A stretch of 40,667 nucleotides of DNA. It comes from Ichthyobacteriaceae bacterium (GTDB lineage: Bacteria > Bacteroidota > Bacteroidia > Flavobacteriales > JADGDT01). A program made the translations under genes and the position numbers. Each line of letters begins with the position of its first letter. The first letter of the stretch is position 1. The DNA lies in assembly GCA_016744755.1 (NCBI GenBank), contig JADGDT010000017.1, positions 1 to 40,667 of the forward strand. Direction: 5' to 3'. Under the pieces are notes generated by a model. That model did not search any database. It was not told where the DNA came from and saw only the letters and a list, made by a program, of their open reading frames with translations. This document shows, one piece after another, positions 1 through 6,155 of this stretch.

Positions 1-717
1 CCTTTCCATAATATCTAAAACCAAATCATCTACAAATGGCCGGTAAGGTTCCATAATATCATCAGCTAGTGGATAAGAATTATATCTATTATGATGATGT
101 ATTCCCTGTGTTGGCAACAATCCTGAACCTACAAGGCTACGAGCAATAACCGCTCGTAAAATTGCATACCCGTAATTCAATAAATTATTGGGTTTGTCTT
201 CAAATCTTCCTCGTTTAAACATTTCTACATTATCGCCAAACAGATGTTTCCAATAATATGCGGCTGCTTGTCCTTCGTGATTCTGAACATCTCCCGAAAG
301 TGTTGAATCCGCAAGATGATACATTATATTAGTCCTTATATTAGATTGCTCGTCGAGTAATCTAGCCTGATTTTTTATTTTTGATTGTATAGTCTGTTGC
401 CATAATTGTTTTTTTAATGGCAAACTCGCATTTAACTGAGATGTAAACCTCTCTCCTTGTACGCTATTTCCATCCAAATTAAGAATCATACCTTGTGGCA
501 TGTGCTTGTCGTTTGTTGTAATAACAGCAACATTATTAGATAATAAATTAGAAATCAGAGTATGACTTATTGTAATTTGATAATGATCTAGAACAATAAA
601 GCCAATATCTTCTATTGGAACTATTTTTGTTTCAGCATCGTCGTACTCAACAATTAACTGCTTGTTTTTTGTGTGGAGATAAGTTTTGTTTCCAAAGTAA
701 AGGGTTCGTTTTATCAT
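1..717 (-). CDS. cas1: CRISPR-associated endonuclease Cas1, type II (3' end cut by window edge)
   Basis: Cas1 is the integrase subunit that, with Cas2, inserts new spacers into the CRISPR array. Reading down from the ATG at 717 gives 239 codons open to the window edge, beginning MIKRTLYFGNKTYLHT. The metal-binding regions are visible: GDVQNHEGQAA around residues 142-152, with E148 the likely catalytic acid, and GIHHHN-RYNSYPLADDIMEP around 205-224 with the conserved His and acidic residues. Type II Cas1 proteins are about 290-300 residues, so roughly the last 55-60 are missing. The gene follows cas9 on the same strand but about 700 bases away, because a transposase gene lies between them. cas2 and the array are expected beyond base 1. 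Confidence 0.95.
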   Translation of the reverse strand, partial: MIKRTLYFGNKTYLHTKNKQLIVEYDDAETKIVPIEDIGFIVLDHYQITISHTLISNLLSNNVAVITTNDKHMPQGMILNLDGNSVQGERFTSQLNASLPLKKQLWQQTIQSKIKNQARLLDEQSNIRTNIMYHLADSTLSGDVQNHEGQAAAYYWKHLFGDNVEMFKRGRFEDKPNNLLNYGYAILRAVIARSLVGSGLLPTQGIHHHNRYNSYPLADDIMEPYRPFVDDLVLDIMER

Positions 718-735
718 AGGTGAAATTTAGTTTAT

Positions 736-768
736 AGCATCGGTGTCGCTTTGAGCGACGCCGATGCT
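736..768. repeat. REP-like palindrome 1 (3' of the transposase gene)
   Basis: The arms AGCATCGG (736-743) and CCGATGCT (761-768) pair perfectly. The stem continues inward as TGTCGCT against AGCGACG, with one T-G wobble (744/760), and closes on the loop TTG (751-753), giving a 15-bp stem. The central 25 bases (740-764) are identical to those of palindrome 2 at 1134-1158. It lies 5 bases beyond the transposase stop codon and 18 bases before the cas1 start, so it would be in the cas1 leader of any readthrough transcript. Confidence 0.85.
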
Positions 769-772
769 TGTA

Positions 773-1354
773 TCAAAAATCTACATATTCTTCTGCCATT
801 TTCTTATTTATCAGCTTTCCATCTCTAATGCCTGCGTAATCTATCGCTGACGAAAACTCCCAATCTACCTCATTATCCACTAATCTTGCCTTTACAGGGT
901 TTTGATGGATATAATTGAAACATATCTGAAGATATTGATCTTCGGTAAATTGAACATTTACATCATTGGCATTAATGAAGTTTGGAGTTGGTCCATTGAA
1001 ACAGTTTACACATTCTGCTTTAGTTTTCTCACGAAATAGTTTACCTGTTCTTTTTTGTTGTTTGTTTATTGCACTAGTATATGAGCGTAACATTATTCCT
1101 ATAGAATCGTTGATTGTTCTTCGTTTGCTAGCGTCGGTGTCGCTTTGAGCGACGCCGACACTTACCTCGTTCACCAACACCATCAAGTGAAAGTGATTTG
1201 GCATTAAACACCACGCTAAAATATCGGCATAAGGCAAAATATACTTTCTTATCTTTTTCAGAAAAAACAAATAATTATCCCTATCAAAGAAAATCTTTTG
1301 CCTATTGTTTCCTTGATTGTAGATGTGGTATATGTTGTCTTTTTCTATTTGCAT
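773..1354 (-). CDS. REP-associated tyrosine transposase (Y1 / IS200-like TnpA, RAYT)
   Basis: Single-strand DNA transposase of the Y1 HUH superfamily. The metal-binding pair is the HFH of MPNHFHLMV (H54, H56), and the nucleophile is probably Y148 in FNYIHQNPVKARLV, a signature of the RAYT branch. The 193-residue frame is intact, begins at ATG 1354 and has no frameshift. Residues 65-75 (SVGVAQSDTDA), just after the HxH strand, are encoded by a REP-like palindrome and look like an in-frame insertion in a loop. The gene runs in the same direction as cas9 and cas1 and lies between them. RAYTs are thought to spread REP sequences but are usually non-mobile themselves; activity here cannot be judged from sequence. 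Confidence 0.93.
   Translation of the reverse strand: MQIEKDNIYHIYNQGNNRQKIFFDRDNYLFFLKKIRKYILPYADILAWCLMPNHFHLMVLVNEVSVGVAQSDTDASKRRTINDSIGIMLRSYTSAINKQQKRTGKLFREKTKAECVNCFNGPTPNFINANDVNVQFTEDQYLQICFNYIHQNPVKARLVDNEVDWEFSSAIDYAGIRDGKLINKKMAEEYVDF
1130..1162. repeat. REP-like palindrome 2, inside the transposase reading frame
   Basis: Same core as palindrome 1 (25 identical bases, 1134-1158). The outer arms differ slightly: the stem has one C-A mismatch (1132/1160) and otherwise pairs from 1130 to 1162 around the loop TTG. It is a multiple of three long and encodes residues 65-75 of the transposase without breaking the frame. Confidence 0.85.
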
Positions 1355-1374
1355 GGTTTTGCTTTTGGTTAATC

Positions 1375-1407
1375 AGTCACGGTGTGTCTCAAAGACACGC
1401 CGTGACT
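1375..1407. repeat. REP-like palindrome 3 (5' of the transposase gene, after cas9)
   Basis: The arms AGTCACGG (1375-1382) and CCGTGACT (1400-1407) pair perfectly. The stem continues as TGTGTCT against AGACACG with a T-G wobble at 1383/1399, the same position as in the other two copies. Arm sequences differ from copies 1 and 2 but compensate on both sides, so the fold rather than the sequence is kept. It lies 10 bases past the cas9 stop. No T-run follows on the minus strand, so it does not look like an intrinsic terminator. Confidence 0.8.
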
Positions 1408-1417
1408 AGCAATTATT

Positions 1418-4400
1418 TTAGTATTCGCCAACTTTTACTATTTGCCCTAAGTGATTTATTCTTACTTTAATTATTCTATTTAATTTATCAGGAGTTTGGA
1501 TAAAATTATATGAAATGCCAGACAATACCTTCATCTTCTTAAGTAACTCACTATTCACAGCTTGTGTTTCTAAATGATTATTAAAAACATAATTCTTAGT
1601 AGAAATCTTCTGCACCCTAAACAAATGCGGACTAATCAAGCTTGTATTTTTAGGATTAAGTAAATCTATTTCTGAAGGTTCAAAATCCTCAGAAGGAAAA
1701 ATAAAATATTCATTTTGTTTCATCGTGAAGAGGAATTCTAAGCCCTCCTTATTTTTATCAATAATTGGCAACCCTTCGTTTACTCTATGCACAGCTTCAT
1801 AAAAAGAAACAACCTCTTCTTGTAATTTTCCTTTATTATCTCTATAAATTGCAACGTGATGGTTGTTTCCTGTACTTACAAAATCTACAGCTTGCCTATT
1901 GCCCTCATTGTCTAACAATATATTACCGTTATGGTCTTTTTTGTAATGTAGTGCTTCCACATTATTTACACCTGTAATTGTAGCACGCTTAATGCTAATC
2001 CCTTTTCCTTTATTTAGCCAAATTGGATTTTCTTCAAGGTTTACAAATGCTTTTTTAGCATCGCCTCCAAACTCATTAAGTCTATCTTGTAGTGCTTTTT
2101 TTACTCCAATATCTACAACCTTATCTATCTTTAAATCTGGAGAAATATCTTTTCTTATTGTATAAATGTTTTCTACCGATACTAATTTTACCTTTTCAGG
2201 AATAGTAGTGGTTTTAGTTTCATCAATAAAAATAGGATTTTTACTTGGTGAATTTTTTCCAGTAAATGCTTTTTTAGCATCTCCTTTATATTCTTCTAAT
2301 CTATAAAGTAAAGCCTCTCTATAAATTTTCTTTGCAACCAACTTAATCTTTGCCATATCGAATTTACCTCCAAGCTTTTCTTCTTTAGTAACGTACTTAG
2401 ATGACTTACCATATATAGTTTCTTTATGCAATTGACCTCTAGGCGTTAACTCTGTTTTAGTAAAAAACTTATCTCTGCCTTTTATCTTAATTTTATTTTT
2501 ATTTCTTGTAACTACCTTATTTTTTGCTTTAAAAGAAATCAAGATACCCTCAAGATGTCTTTTAGATTCTCGTCGAAACTCGCCTATAGGCATTGGAGAA
2601 GTAAAAACTAATTTGCCTTTTTTATTTCTATGCAAATTATTTTGCTCTATCCCGTATATTGCTCCGCTCTTGTCTTTTCTGGCATGTAGATTGTTCAAAT
2701 ACTGTATGTAAGCTGGTTTTGTAAACGCAACAGTTAATGCATCCATTGCATGATGTCTATGATCGTTTCGTTTAGTCCAATCTTTTATTCTTTTTTCCTC
2801 CTGACCGTTCTTACCTTCTATAATTTCAACCAAACCTAACTTTTCATATTTAGGCATATTTAGGTCTTTCATTGTATTTATCAACTGCCAATCGTTCCTT
2901 AATCTATCAGTAATACTGCCTGATGTAGCACTAACTGTTCTAACAATTTCTTGCAACATTTGGGTTGCTTTCTTTGCTATATACTGACTATTTCGTAAAT
3001 CTCTTTCTATAAACCCTTCTGAAAGTTCAGATGCTTTTTTCAATAATTTGCTATACTTTGCCTTAGAGAAACCACCATCTTTATACATTGTCTCAACCCT
3101 CGATAAATATTGATTAAATTTATTTTTATCCAAGAAAATATTTAAAAAATCATACGCTGTTTCATTACTTTTTTTCAAATTAACTTCTCTTACTGATAGG
3201 GTTTTATTTGAGAAACTATCATCGAAGACCAAAGCTTTAGGTACAATATGTTCTATATCAAATTCTTTAGAAAATATTTTTTCTCTTGGAATATATGTAT
3301 TGGTGTAAATTGTCTTATATCCATTACTTTCTAATTCTTCCCAAAGCTTAAACCTAATAATATCATTTCGGGTAACTTTTGTAATCCCAAATTCAGTCTG
3401 TAAAACTTTTCTAATCTTTTCATGTTTTGCAGTTGCTTTGTTAATATTGGATGTCATTTCGGCTCGTTCCTTAGCACTTTTCTTTAACTCTCTTGCTAAC
3501 TCAACTCTAATTTCATCAGGTTTACCTAAATTTTCATCTTTAATTATTGCATTTATGACATTAACTAGCTGGTTTAATATTTTTTCAACAACAGGATTAC
3601 GAAGTGAGTTTTTGGGTAGAAGTTCTAAAACATCTTTTAACTCTCTTTTTTCTTGCTCTTCTTTTGTTAGTGAAGAAGAGTGATTATAGCCTGCATAATT
3701 ACAAGCTTTATCGTAAGCACTACCTTCTTTCAGAAAAGGTAATATTTTACGAATTGCTCTACTCGACAACCCTCCATAATCAGCTTGTAACTTACAATTA
3801 GTTATCAACTTCGCATATTCTTCTCTGAATCCAAATTTTTCAGTTATTGCATTTATTAGTTTTTCTTCTCCTGTTCTACTATTATCTCCTTCAAAAGAAT
3901 ACAACAAATGCCAAAGTTGTAACATAGGTTGTTTGTCAAATTCATTCCCCGACACTTCGTCATTAAAAAGAATAATCTCCTGCTCAATACCTAGTTCACT
4001 AAATTTAGAAATTATTACGTCATTAATATCTACAGCTTTTAATTTCTTGAAATCATACTCCTTCCCTTCCCTCTTTAATATCTCTTGATAAACTTTATAA
4101 AGTTCAGCATTAAATCTATTACCTTCTAATCCTTCTTTATAATTTAGTTTAAACTCTTTTGGTTTTTCAACTAAAATTTTCAACACATCACTTTTACTTA
4201 ATTTTTCTCGGATGTTTAGTTCCTCAAAAAGTAGGTTTTTAGCCTCTTGCGAAATTTGTTCTCCTTTATACTTTTCTTTAGTACTAATATTTTGAATTTC
4301 TATATTATTTATTAGTTGCCATATCTTGAACTCTTGGAAAAGAGGAGCAGATTTAGGAATAGCCTTATGCTGTTTTTCGAACTCACATTCACTTATTAAA

Positions 4401-5518
4401 TGCTTTTGTGATTTTAATCTACGTTGGTAAAAGATTATAACATCTCTAACCTCTTTTTTTAATTCTTCTGTTAACTCAAAGTGAAACTCCTTTTGCTTTT
4501 CCCAAATTGCCTCAAATTCATCTAGATAATCTTGGCGATAAAAAACTTGATTTTTTAGTTTTGTGTGTGAATTAACTTCTAATTGTTTGTAAAGATATTC
4601 ACCTACAGTTTGCTTATTAAAGTAGAGTTCCTTACTTCTATCACTTATCGCTCCTAGATATCCACTTGATGAATTAATATTATTATTTATTTCTTGAATT
4701 ACAATTGCTAATTCTTCTAAGTTAAGTTCTTCGGATAAAGCTTTTGTCCTCCATAGATAATTTTCCTTCTTTTGTTCTACTCCTTTTGTTTCTCTCTTCA
4801 CTCCTATTATACTAAATGGGTCTTTTAGAATTGCCCAAGTTTGTGTTTTATTTTTACTACGTATTTCTTCTTTTAGTATGTCAGTTAAAACCCCTACATT
4901 AAATTGCTTCTGAAAACTCCAAATTTTATCTAATTCATTTTGTAAATCCGATCTATAAAAATCTGGAATATGCTTCTTCCCATTAGCGAATAAATTATAT
5001 ACATACTCTCCTGGAGTTAAATCATTATCGTAAATTAATTTTGCAACTTCCATTCCATCAATTGCAGTTCCTTCATCATCAGACTTAGCTTTCCTACTAC
5101 TTTTATATCCTCTCTTTTTATTTATCATCAAGAGAGTTTTAGCTAAATCATCTTTAGCTATTTTTTCTCGAGGGGCTTTTGCTCGTTGTTCATAAGTATC
5201 AAAAGTTGTTAACTTTCCTTCTTCGCTTAAAATAGTATTATCTGAAATAATATTATTCTTCTTTAGAATATTTATCAATGCATCTCTCCTCAATTGATAT
5301 CTATCTAAACTTCTTCTTGCACCACGTTTTAATGTTCTATCAGCATTAATAGAGACTGCTTTCCCTTTCTGAAAATCTGTCTCTTCATCCGTACTAAGAG
5401 GAATAACTCTAACCCCAATTTTTATTATTGATGATTTTTCTTCTTTATTTTCTGCTTCGTTAACTAATGCCCAACCTATGGAAGTTGTCCCTAAATCAAG
5501 TCCTAAAATCTTTTTCAT
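1418..5518 (-). CDS. cas9: CRISPR-associated endonuclease Cas9, type II-C
   Basis: RNA-guided DNA endonuclease of 1366 residues. Seen in order: RuvC-I with D8 in ILGLDLGTTSIGW; an arginine-rich bridge helix around 61-80 (RGARRSLDRYQLRRD); RuvC-II with E673 in IRVELARELK; the HNH domain with H757 in FDIEHIVPKAL and N780; and RuvC-III with H923 and D926 in HHAMDAL. All catalytic residues of both nucleases are present, so the enzyme should cut. The C-terminal WED/PAM-interacting part (from about 1060) holds two copies of a GDAKKAF-containing segment 73 residues apart. The ATG at 5518 gives a proper RuvC-I start. A tracrRNA gene lies divergently 25-30 bases upstream. No csn2 or cas4 is visible, and the layout fits subtype II-C. 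Confidence 0.97.
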   Translation of the reverse strand: MKKILGLDLGTTSIGWALVNEAENKEEKSSIIKIGVRVIPLSTDEETDFQKGKAVSINADRTLKRGARRSLDRYQLRRDALINILKKNNIISDNTILSEEGKLTTFDTYEQRAKAPREKIAKDDLAKTLLMINKKRGYKSSRKAKSDDEGTAIDGMEVAKLIYDNDLTPGEYVYNLFANGKKHIPDFYRSDLQNELDKIWSFQKQFNVGVLTDILKEEIRSKNKTQTWAILKDPFSIIGVKRETKGVEQKKENYLWRTKALSEELNLEELAIVIQEINNNINSSSGYLGAISDRSKELYFNKQTVGEYLYKQLEVNSHTKLKNQVFYRQDYLDEFEAIWEKQKEFHFELTEELKKEVRDVIIFYQRRLKSQKHLISECEFEKQHKAIPKSAPLFQEFKIWQLINNIEIQNISTKEKYKGEQISQEAKNLLFEELNIREKLSKSDVLKILVEKPKEFKLNYKEGLEGNRFNAELYKVYQEILKREGKEYDFKKLKAVDINDVIISKFSELGIEQEIILFNDEVSGNEFDKQPMLQLWHLLYSFEGDNSRTGEEKLINAITEKFGFREEYAKLITNCKLQADYGGLSSRAIRKILPFLKEGSAYDKACNYAGYNHSSSLTKEEQEKRELKDVLELLPKNSLRNPVVEKILNQLVNVINAIIKDENLGKPDEIRVELARELKKSAKERAEMTSNINKATAKHEKIRKVLQTEFGITKVTRNDIIRFKLWEELESNGYKTIYTNTYIPREKIFSKEFDIEHIVPKALVFDDSFSNKTLSVREVNLKKSNETAYDFLNIFLDKNKFNQYLSRVETMYKDGGFSKAKYSKLLKKASELSEGFIERDLRNSQYIAKKATQMLQEIVRTVSATSGSITDRLRNDWQLINTMKDLNMPKYEKLGLVEIIEGKNGQEEKRIKDWTKRNDHRHHAMDALTVAFTKPAYIQYLNNLHARKDKSGAIYGIEQNNLHRNKKGKLVFTSPMPIGEFRRESKRHLEGILISFKAKNKVVTRNKNKIKIKGRDKFFTKTELTPRGQLHKETIYGKSSKYVTKEEKLGGKFDMAKIKLVAKKIYREALLYRLEEYKGDAKKAFTGKNSPSKNPIFIDETKTTTIPEKVKLVSVENIYTIRKDISPDLKIDKVVDIGVKKALQDRLNEFGGDAKKAFVNLEENPIWLNKGKGISIKRATITGVNNVEALHYKKDHNGNILLDNEGNRQAVDFVSTGNNHHVAIYRDNKGKLQEEVVSFYEAVHRVNEGLPIIDKNKEGLEFLFTMKQNEYFIFPSEDFEPSEIDLLNPKNTSLISPHLFRVQKISTKNYVFNNHLETQAVNSELLKKMKVLSGISYNFIQTPDKLNRIIKVRINHLGQIVKVGEY
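2045..2281 (-). repeat. Direct repeat within cas9 (two 18-base identical segments 219 bases apart)
   Basis: The segments 2045-2062 and 2264-2281 are identical over 18 bases and are spaced by 219 bases (73 codons), in frame. They encode DAKKAF in both places: RLEEYKGDAKKAF near residues 1073-1085 and RLNEFGGDAKKAF near 1146-1158. Similarity extends to NPIFID against NPIWLN downstream. This suggests an internal duplication in the C-terminal region. Confidence 0.75.
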
Positions 5519-5544: not shown

Positions 5545-5642
5545 TCAGTTAATATTGTTCTACAATTTTGAAGCAATTCACAATAAGGATTATTCCGTTG
5601 TGAAAACATTCAAGGCGGGAATTTTTTCTCGCCTTTTCTTTT
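5545..5642 (+). ncRNA. tracrRNA (predicted) of the type II-C system
   Basis: Trans-activating RNA that pairs with CRISPR repeats and is bound by Cas9. The likely anti-repeat is about 5553-5583 (TTGTTCTACAATTTTGAAGC... ending TTCACAA). It is followed by a short nexus-like hairpin GGA-TTAT-TCC (5587-5596), the tail CGTTGTGAAAAC, and a 10-bp terminator hairpin at 5612-5635. The tail AAGGATTATTCCGTTGTGAA is the form I know from Bacteroidota tracrRNAs. From the anti-repeat, the CRISPR repeat should begin near TTGTGAATTGCTTCAAAATT, allowing for bulges. The 5' end is a guess: no convincing promoter box was found upstream. Confidence 0.82.
5612..5642 (+). terminator. Intrinsic terminator of the tracrRNA
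   Basis: AAGGCGGGAA (5612-5621) pairs with TTCTCGCCTT (5626-5635) with one G-T wobble around the loop TTTT. It is followed by TTCTTTTTTT. It also forms the final stem-loop of the tracrRNA. Confidence 0.85.
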
Positions 5643-5672
5643 TTACCTATTTTTGTATTACAATTGAGTAGC

Positions 5673-6044: not shown

Positions 6045-6155
6045 TTGCCCCATTTGCATGAAGGATAGAGGCGACATCCTTTTTGATTTTTCATCAAAAA
6101 GATAAAGCCGAAAGCCTGACCTGTAGAGATAACGGAAGGACATGCCCAAATTAGA
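6045..6155 (+). ncRNA. Structured intergenic element, possible small RNA or repeated flavobacterial element
   Basis: ATTTG+CATG (6052-6060) pairs with CATG-CC-CAAAT (6141-6151), closing an element of about 100 bases. Inside, CTTTTTGAT (6079-6087) pairs perfectly with ATCAAAAAG (6093-6101). AAGGAT/ATCCTT (6061-6066/6076-6081) can form a competing hairpin, and GC-rich single-stranded patches (GAGGCGAC, AAGCCGAAAGCCTGACC) look conserved in style. From memory, similar sequences (GGAT..GCGGCATCC, a long hairpin, then GCGGA..AGCCCGACC) recur between genes in flavobacteria; I cannot name a family. Strand is assigned from that recollection and is uncertain. No open frame of note overlaps it. Confidence 0.5.

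Follow-up and report, generated by a model that had tools for sequence, protein, structure and literature searches.

RAYT transposase genes recur between cas9 and cas1 in type II-C CRISPR-Cas loci of Bacteroidota

Described RAYTs and the unit next to cas9

RAYTs (TnpAREP) are a class of domesticated transposases for which, to our knowledge, no job has been established. Among the described subclasses, 2.4 has REP sequences inserted inside the tnpAREP gene, and 2.6, found in Bacteroidetes, has the tyrosine motif YIH[QN]NP and atypical hairpins at the gene ends (Quentin et al. 2018, PMC6006769). CRISPR is unmentioned in that study. A “Y1 Tpase” is named among putative CRISPR auxiliary genes in the Fig. 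6D legend of Altae-Tran et al. 2023 (PMC10910872); there, as in the present analysis, a Y1 transposase is statistically linked to CRISPR loci, and the entry is a partial precedent for a RAYT–CRISPR link. Searches of the open literature did not turn up a paper that describes RAYTs in the cas9–cas1 gap, and their recurrent concentration where the effector and adaptation genes of Bacteroidota II-C loci meet appears to be new.

The stretch of DNA analyzed here, referred to as the window (40,667 nucleotides), is the entire contig C228 of a fragmented genome, and its end falls within cas1. Read up to the contig end, its type II-C locus has cas9 and a type II cas1, both recognized by profiles (Table 1). 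An earlier note on this DNA had stated that the locus was not destroyed, which holds for the cas genes in the readable part, namely the whole of cas9 and the first 239 aa of cas1; the last ~60 residues of cas1, and any cas2 and array, would lie beyond the contig end. Like other Bacteroidota type II-C CRISPR-Cas systems, the window has cas9, cas1, a putative tracrRNA upstream of cas9 and the gene order of its relatives, but it differs by the addition of a RAYT unit at the effector/adaptation joint. The putative tracrRNA forms a predicted duplex of -24.5 kcal/mol with the CRISPR repeat of locus L009 (the repeat of a relative rather than of the window's own locus), versus -15.1 +/- 2.8 kcal/mol for shuffled sequences. 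Distant Bacteroidales plasmids carry a 50-nt stretch of it at 94% identity, the only match when plasmids were searched with the window. A Flavo-1 RNA (Rfam RF01705, E=1e-7, above the gathering score) is located slightly upstream of cas9 (6051-6125, +).

In the ORF reading of the window, 700 bases separate the cas1 start (717, -) from the cas9 stop (1418, -) and contain a single intact ORF, co-directional with both cas genes. The exact coordinates, the intact ORF and three hairpins bear out the earlier description of this gap as a co-directional RAYT unit with its own palindromes.

Table 1. Features of the cas locus and the RAYT unit in the window
Feature	Position	Strand	Basis
cas1, type II, first 239 aa (contig end cuts the gene)	1..717	-	TIGR03639, E=3.9e-82
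Downstream palindrome, between RAYT stop and cas1 start	about 735..769		
RAYT/TnpAREP-like Y1 transposase, 193 aa, HFH and YIHQNP kept	773..1354	-	
Palindrome within the RAYT ORF, in frame	about 1129..1163		
Upstream palindrome, 33 nt, 15-bp stem with mismatch, 3-nt loop, between cas9 stop and RAYT start	1375..1407		
cas9, type II-C, 1366 aa, intact	1418..5518	-	ORF; TIGR01865, E=1.7e-146; RuvC_III, HNH_4
Putative tracrRNA (anti-repeat, hairpin, terminator), divergent from cas9	about 5556..5646	+	inferred

The gap protein matches NCBIfam REP_Tyr_transpos (NF047646) in two stretches (E=1.9e-14), with a score of 53.8 bits that lies under the curated cut-off of 80 bits, as do those of the CRISPR-linked relatives tested; no Pfam family was matched. 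Its HUH motif reads MPNHFH and its tyrosine motif YIHQNP. For its AlphaFold model (pLDDT 81), the sole structural match in the PDB at E<=0.001 is the RAYT:REP complex 4ER8 (Foldseek, 1.4e-6), which ranks ahead of IS200-type transposases, and 4ER8 is also the only match at E<=0.01 (E=0.002) in a PDB profile search. Predicted fold and sequence together point to TnpAREP. The window unit shares with the REPtron of 4ER8 the Y1 HUH fold, the HFH and Y motifs, a gene framed by hairpins and a low copy number; it differs in its hairpins, which are 33 nt long with a 3-nt loop, have no GTAG foot and are rare in the genome, and in its position within a cas operon. In the sequence, no GTAG tetranucleotide lies directly beside the three window hairpins, which excludes the canonical GTAG type but not the RAYT family, because subclass 2.6 has atypical hairpins. 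The protein mixes features of the two subclasses, with the HuH motif NHFH of 2.4 and the Y motif of 2.6. Since 2.4 has internal REPs and 2.6 atypical hairpins (PMC6006769), the unit itself belongs to an already described type: it is an ordinary Bacteroidota RAYT of the atypical-hairpin type. An IS200/IS605 insertion sequence was rejected as a candidate; the genome has one full copy and two fragments, and the RAYT has no adjacent tnpB, the gap containing no other gene. The same genome carries a second RAYT copy, cut by a contig end (L002; G000:C28:5-190) and 85% identical over 62 aa, which lies upstream of ribosomal protein genes and away from cas genes.

The downstream and internal palindromes of the window, which in a narrower delimitation span about 736-768 and 1133-1159, share a stem family (91% over 35 nt). 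The internal hairpin is predicted to encode a poorly ordered loop, placed by the model at the protein surface, where the HUH strands lead into the following helix (pLDDT <50 at residues 71-74). The earlier note proposed that the unit may supply the cas1 leader or process the transcript; in the sequence, none of the window hairpins is followed by a T run such as an intrinsic terminator would have. The window palindrome is rare, occurring at four places in its own genome; the only two further copies (G000:C88:83582-83604 and C227:2563-2585) each lie a few bases past an ORF stop.

Recurrence of RAYTs in type II-C loci

The only IMG/VR relative of the window RAYT, which is 56% identical and belongs to locus L009, likewise sits in a cas9–cas1 gap, followed by cas2 and a repeat array. 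Among the 80 closest GTDB RAYTs listed, 19 are located between cas9 and cas1, including one with an in-frame stop codon (L053), so that 21 RAYTs occupy this position once those of the window and L009 are added. Such counts start from RAYTs, and an unbiased count was therefore made from Cas1. The Cas1-seeded draw covered 395 Bacteroidia genomes, 82 of them with type II-C cas1; 80 loci were read, and the cas9 end was found in 68. A RAYT occupies the cas9–cas1 gap in 14 of these 68 readable loci (21%). The earlier note held that the two genes are usually tens of bases apart, which is correct for the 37/68 loci with a gap of <=120 bp, often with an ATGA overlap of cas9 stop and cas1 start, but not for the other 31, and 14 of those 31 longer gaps hold a RAYT. 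Loci without any gap gene make up 54% of the sample.

RAYTs also lie between cas1 and cas2 in four loci, one of which (L175) has a RAYT in both gaps and another of which (L174) is cut by a contig end. RAYTs within cas operons belong to at least three subfamilies; locus L097 has a subfamily A RAYT just upstream of cas9 and a third RAYT type in the cas9–cas1 gap (L097:5567-6689). The Cas1 ORF of L097 holds three palindrome-coded in-frame insertions (VETPYQGVS-like). In Flavobacteriaceae metagenome-assembled genomes (MAGs), a single ORF of ~1030 aa joins a RAYT to a PIF1-like helicase that has HRDC and HTH_40 domains, and it contains a second palindrome-coded linker (L061:6001-9102, L062:2174-5260, L074:3443-6523, and L064 at a contig end). 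Bacteroidota-like cas9-RAYT-cas1 loci (L072 and L080) were also found in MAGs labeled Gracilibacteria and Paceibacterota, and mis-binned contigs are a likelier explanation of these labels than transfer. One culturable host with a RAYT in this position is Alkaliflexus imshenetskii DSM 15055 (L096).

A profile search of 315 Bacteroidia genomes placed 17 of 77 RAYTs in II-C cas operons, versus ~0.01 expected at random under an assumed round number of ~3000 gene intervals; the corresponding share of 22% is an upper-side estimate, because most of the sequences behind the profile were CRISPR-linked RAYTs. Five independent events alone would already far exceed chance. The arrangement is thus recurrent and not a one-off accident of the window locus, and the earlier idea of a peculiar insertion event in this locus gives way to an arrangement found in 14/68 loci, which involves at least three RAYT subfamilies and many independent gains. 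In a sample from the window's order, 28 genomes have a related cas9, and among loci in which cas1 was also placed a RAYT was found in the window only and another gap gene in five. The comparison proposed earlier, with a relative lacking the unit, yielded no close empty-site relative in the window's genus and family (three genomes), both other genomes being without such a cas9. Nor do all relatives carry the same unit with a fixed sequence, the pattern that the earlier note had set against its own reading; from locus to locus, both the sequence and the ancestry of the unit vary.

Gains, passengers and decay at the cas9–cas1 joint

On the RAYT tree, the CRISPR label requires 14 changes, at least 5 of them forced by starred branches. 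The Cas1 clade of the window has an SH-aLRT support of 94, and monophyly of its RAYTs is rejected (AU p=0.026); its members were found via their RAYTs, and the presence of a RAYT in all ten is no evidence by itself. Distances between Cas1s and between RAYTs are unrelated (Mantel r=0.015, p=0.43), while those of Cas1 and Cas2 are correlated (r=0.74, p=0.0002). A single ancient domestication was rejected, given the scatter of CRISPR-linked RAYTs over their tree, the outcome of the AU test and the missing correlation of RAYT and Cas1 distances. On the Cas1 tree, 18 changes account for the presence of RAYTs, and starred branches make at least 11 of them necessary; shuffling gives 29.8, a clustering from which it follows that some units persist for a while.

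Two other readings were rejected. Defense genes are rare beside non-CRISPR RAYTs (a handful of 78; 0/28), which speaks against RAYTs as general defense-island genes, and a phage origin was rejected on the basis of IMG/VR, where the only relative was L009, itself a cas locus, and the Cas1-seeded loci held no other RAYT.

All 39 RAYTs inside cas operons are co-directional with the cas genes, versus 30/40 of those between tandem genes elsewhere (p=0.001). Genes unrelated to RAYTs fill the same gap, namely, those for HIRAN, DUF6155, DUF4143-type and other ATPases, RhuM/Fic and a nucleotidyltransferase, and a DUF559 gene lies in the cas1–cas2 gap of L177. The passengers of the cas9–cas1 gap are also all co-directional, so the orientation of the RAYTs reads as a need for cas1 expression rather than as a RAYT-specific property.

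The joint is also a place where cas9 changes. In the window's Cas1 clade, two RAYT loci (L065 and L075) have Cas1s that are 87% identical and Cas9s that are 26% identical, and two loci without a RAYT (L013 and L035) combine 99% identity in Cas1 with 33% in Cas9. Close Cas1s with unrelated Cas9s in L158 and L159 represent a further effector swap at the joint. In loci without a RAYT, Cas9 swaps were counted in 53 of 133 close Cas1 pairs, against 39/69. Since swaps occur without it, a RAYT is not required for cas9 swapping, and RAYTs were rejected as their cause. Where Cas1s are close, cas9 stop and cas1 start overlap (ATGA) at empty joints and are at least 600 bases apart at filled ones; the paired empty and filled loci differ in Cas9 and are not clean before-and-after pairs.

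The fate of the units varies. Besides the RAYT of L053, interrupted by its stop codon, that of L205 is split, and only debris is left in L196. In L191 and L201 the RAYTs are truncated, with sequence from the internal hairpin onward only, as would result if hairpin–hairpin recombination had removed the HUH half. Both catalytic motifs are kept in 19 of the 20 CRISPR-linked subfamily A RAYTs, although the search itself favored intact HUH motifs. Hairpins accompany most CRISPR-linked RAYTs (inside the gene in 18/20, upstream in 12/20 and downstream in 10/20), and a comparable hairpin occurs in 4/270 control 150-nt windows; flanking and internal hairpins are kept around CRISPR-linked RAYTs much as around other RAYTs. 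In L054 the flanking hairpins are lost, and the RAYT starts 3 nt past cas9 and ends in an ATGA overlap of its stop codon with the cas1 start. This RAYT looks like a kept operon gene, and it is the best hint of a retained function.

Competing explanations and significance

The joint is probably a recurrent recombination and landing site for RAYTs in Bacteroidota II-C loci, with the RAYT as a hitchhiker that often decays. RAYT units of several subfamilies, as well as other solo genes, have come to occupy the effector/adaptation joint on many separate occasions, the entry of RAYTs perhaps being mediated by their palindromes and HUH enzyme, and cas9 is exchanged against cas1-cas2 at the same point. 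Only co-directional arrivals would persist, since cas1 would still need transcription of the operon, and we infer that such read-through, together with hitchhiking on a mobile, selected cas operon, may be why RAYTs stay, often to decay. The hotspot reading is opposed by several observations, including the clustering of RAYT presence on the Cas1 tree, the gene coupling in L054 and the retention of motifs. In addition, RAYTs are the commonest occupant of the gap, so that it does not admit all genes alike.

The enrichment of RAYTs beside cas1, which is very strong, would also suit an accessory adaptation protein, repeatedly recruited, whose HUH nuclease would process single-stranded or hairpin DNA for Cas1-Cas2 in prespacer supply or integration. 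Constant co-direction, a location either ahead of cas1 or in the cas1–cas2 gap, intact catalytic motifs, tight gene coupling in L054 and L072, and the “Y1 Tpase” named in the legend of Altae-Tran et al. 2023 (PMC10910872) are all consistent with such a protein. It is nevertheless unlikely, as RAYT and Cas1 do not co-evolve, more than half of the loci manage without a gap gene, decayed RAYTs lie beside intact cas1, and unrelated genes fill the same gap in the same orientation; the coupling in L054 is the reason for giving it that much weight. A role of RAYTs in spacer acquisition is thus possible but unsupported, and the stronger proposal that II-C systems of Bacteroidota repeatedly recruit a HUH transposase into a functional RAYT-Cas1-Cas2 adaptation unit, with a role comparable to that of Cas4 or RT-Cas1, is slightly less likely still. 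It is improbable that RAYTs and their palindromes make the joint, with strand exchange at hairpins swapping cas9 modules onto cas1-cas2: the hairpins are located exactly at the joint, and the window's Cas1 clade pairs close Cas1s with unrelated Cas9s, but such swaps also occur in RAYT-less loci, among close relatives without the unit. Very improbable, finally, is a single insertion in the window's lineage, tolerated because it was co-directional. The hairpins flanking the unit and the partial second RAYT copy in the genome agree with an insertion, but as a complete account it is already contradicted by recurrence, both among the nearest RAYTs listed and in the unbiased sample of II-C loci.

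With RAYTs concentrated >1000-fold, relative to random placement, at one joint of a CRISPR operon, an odd gap in one locus becomes a recurrent pattern that can be counted. If the joint is a general hotspot of module exchange, as the landing-site reading would have it, the pattern is relevant to the reshuffling of cas9 and cas1-cas2 modules. If the alternative were true, RAYTs would contribute to adaptation.
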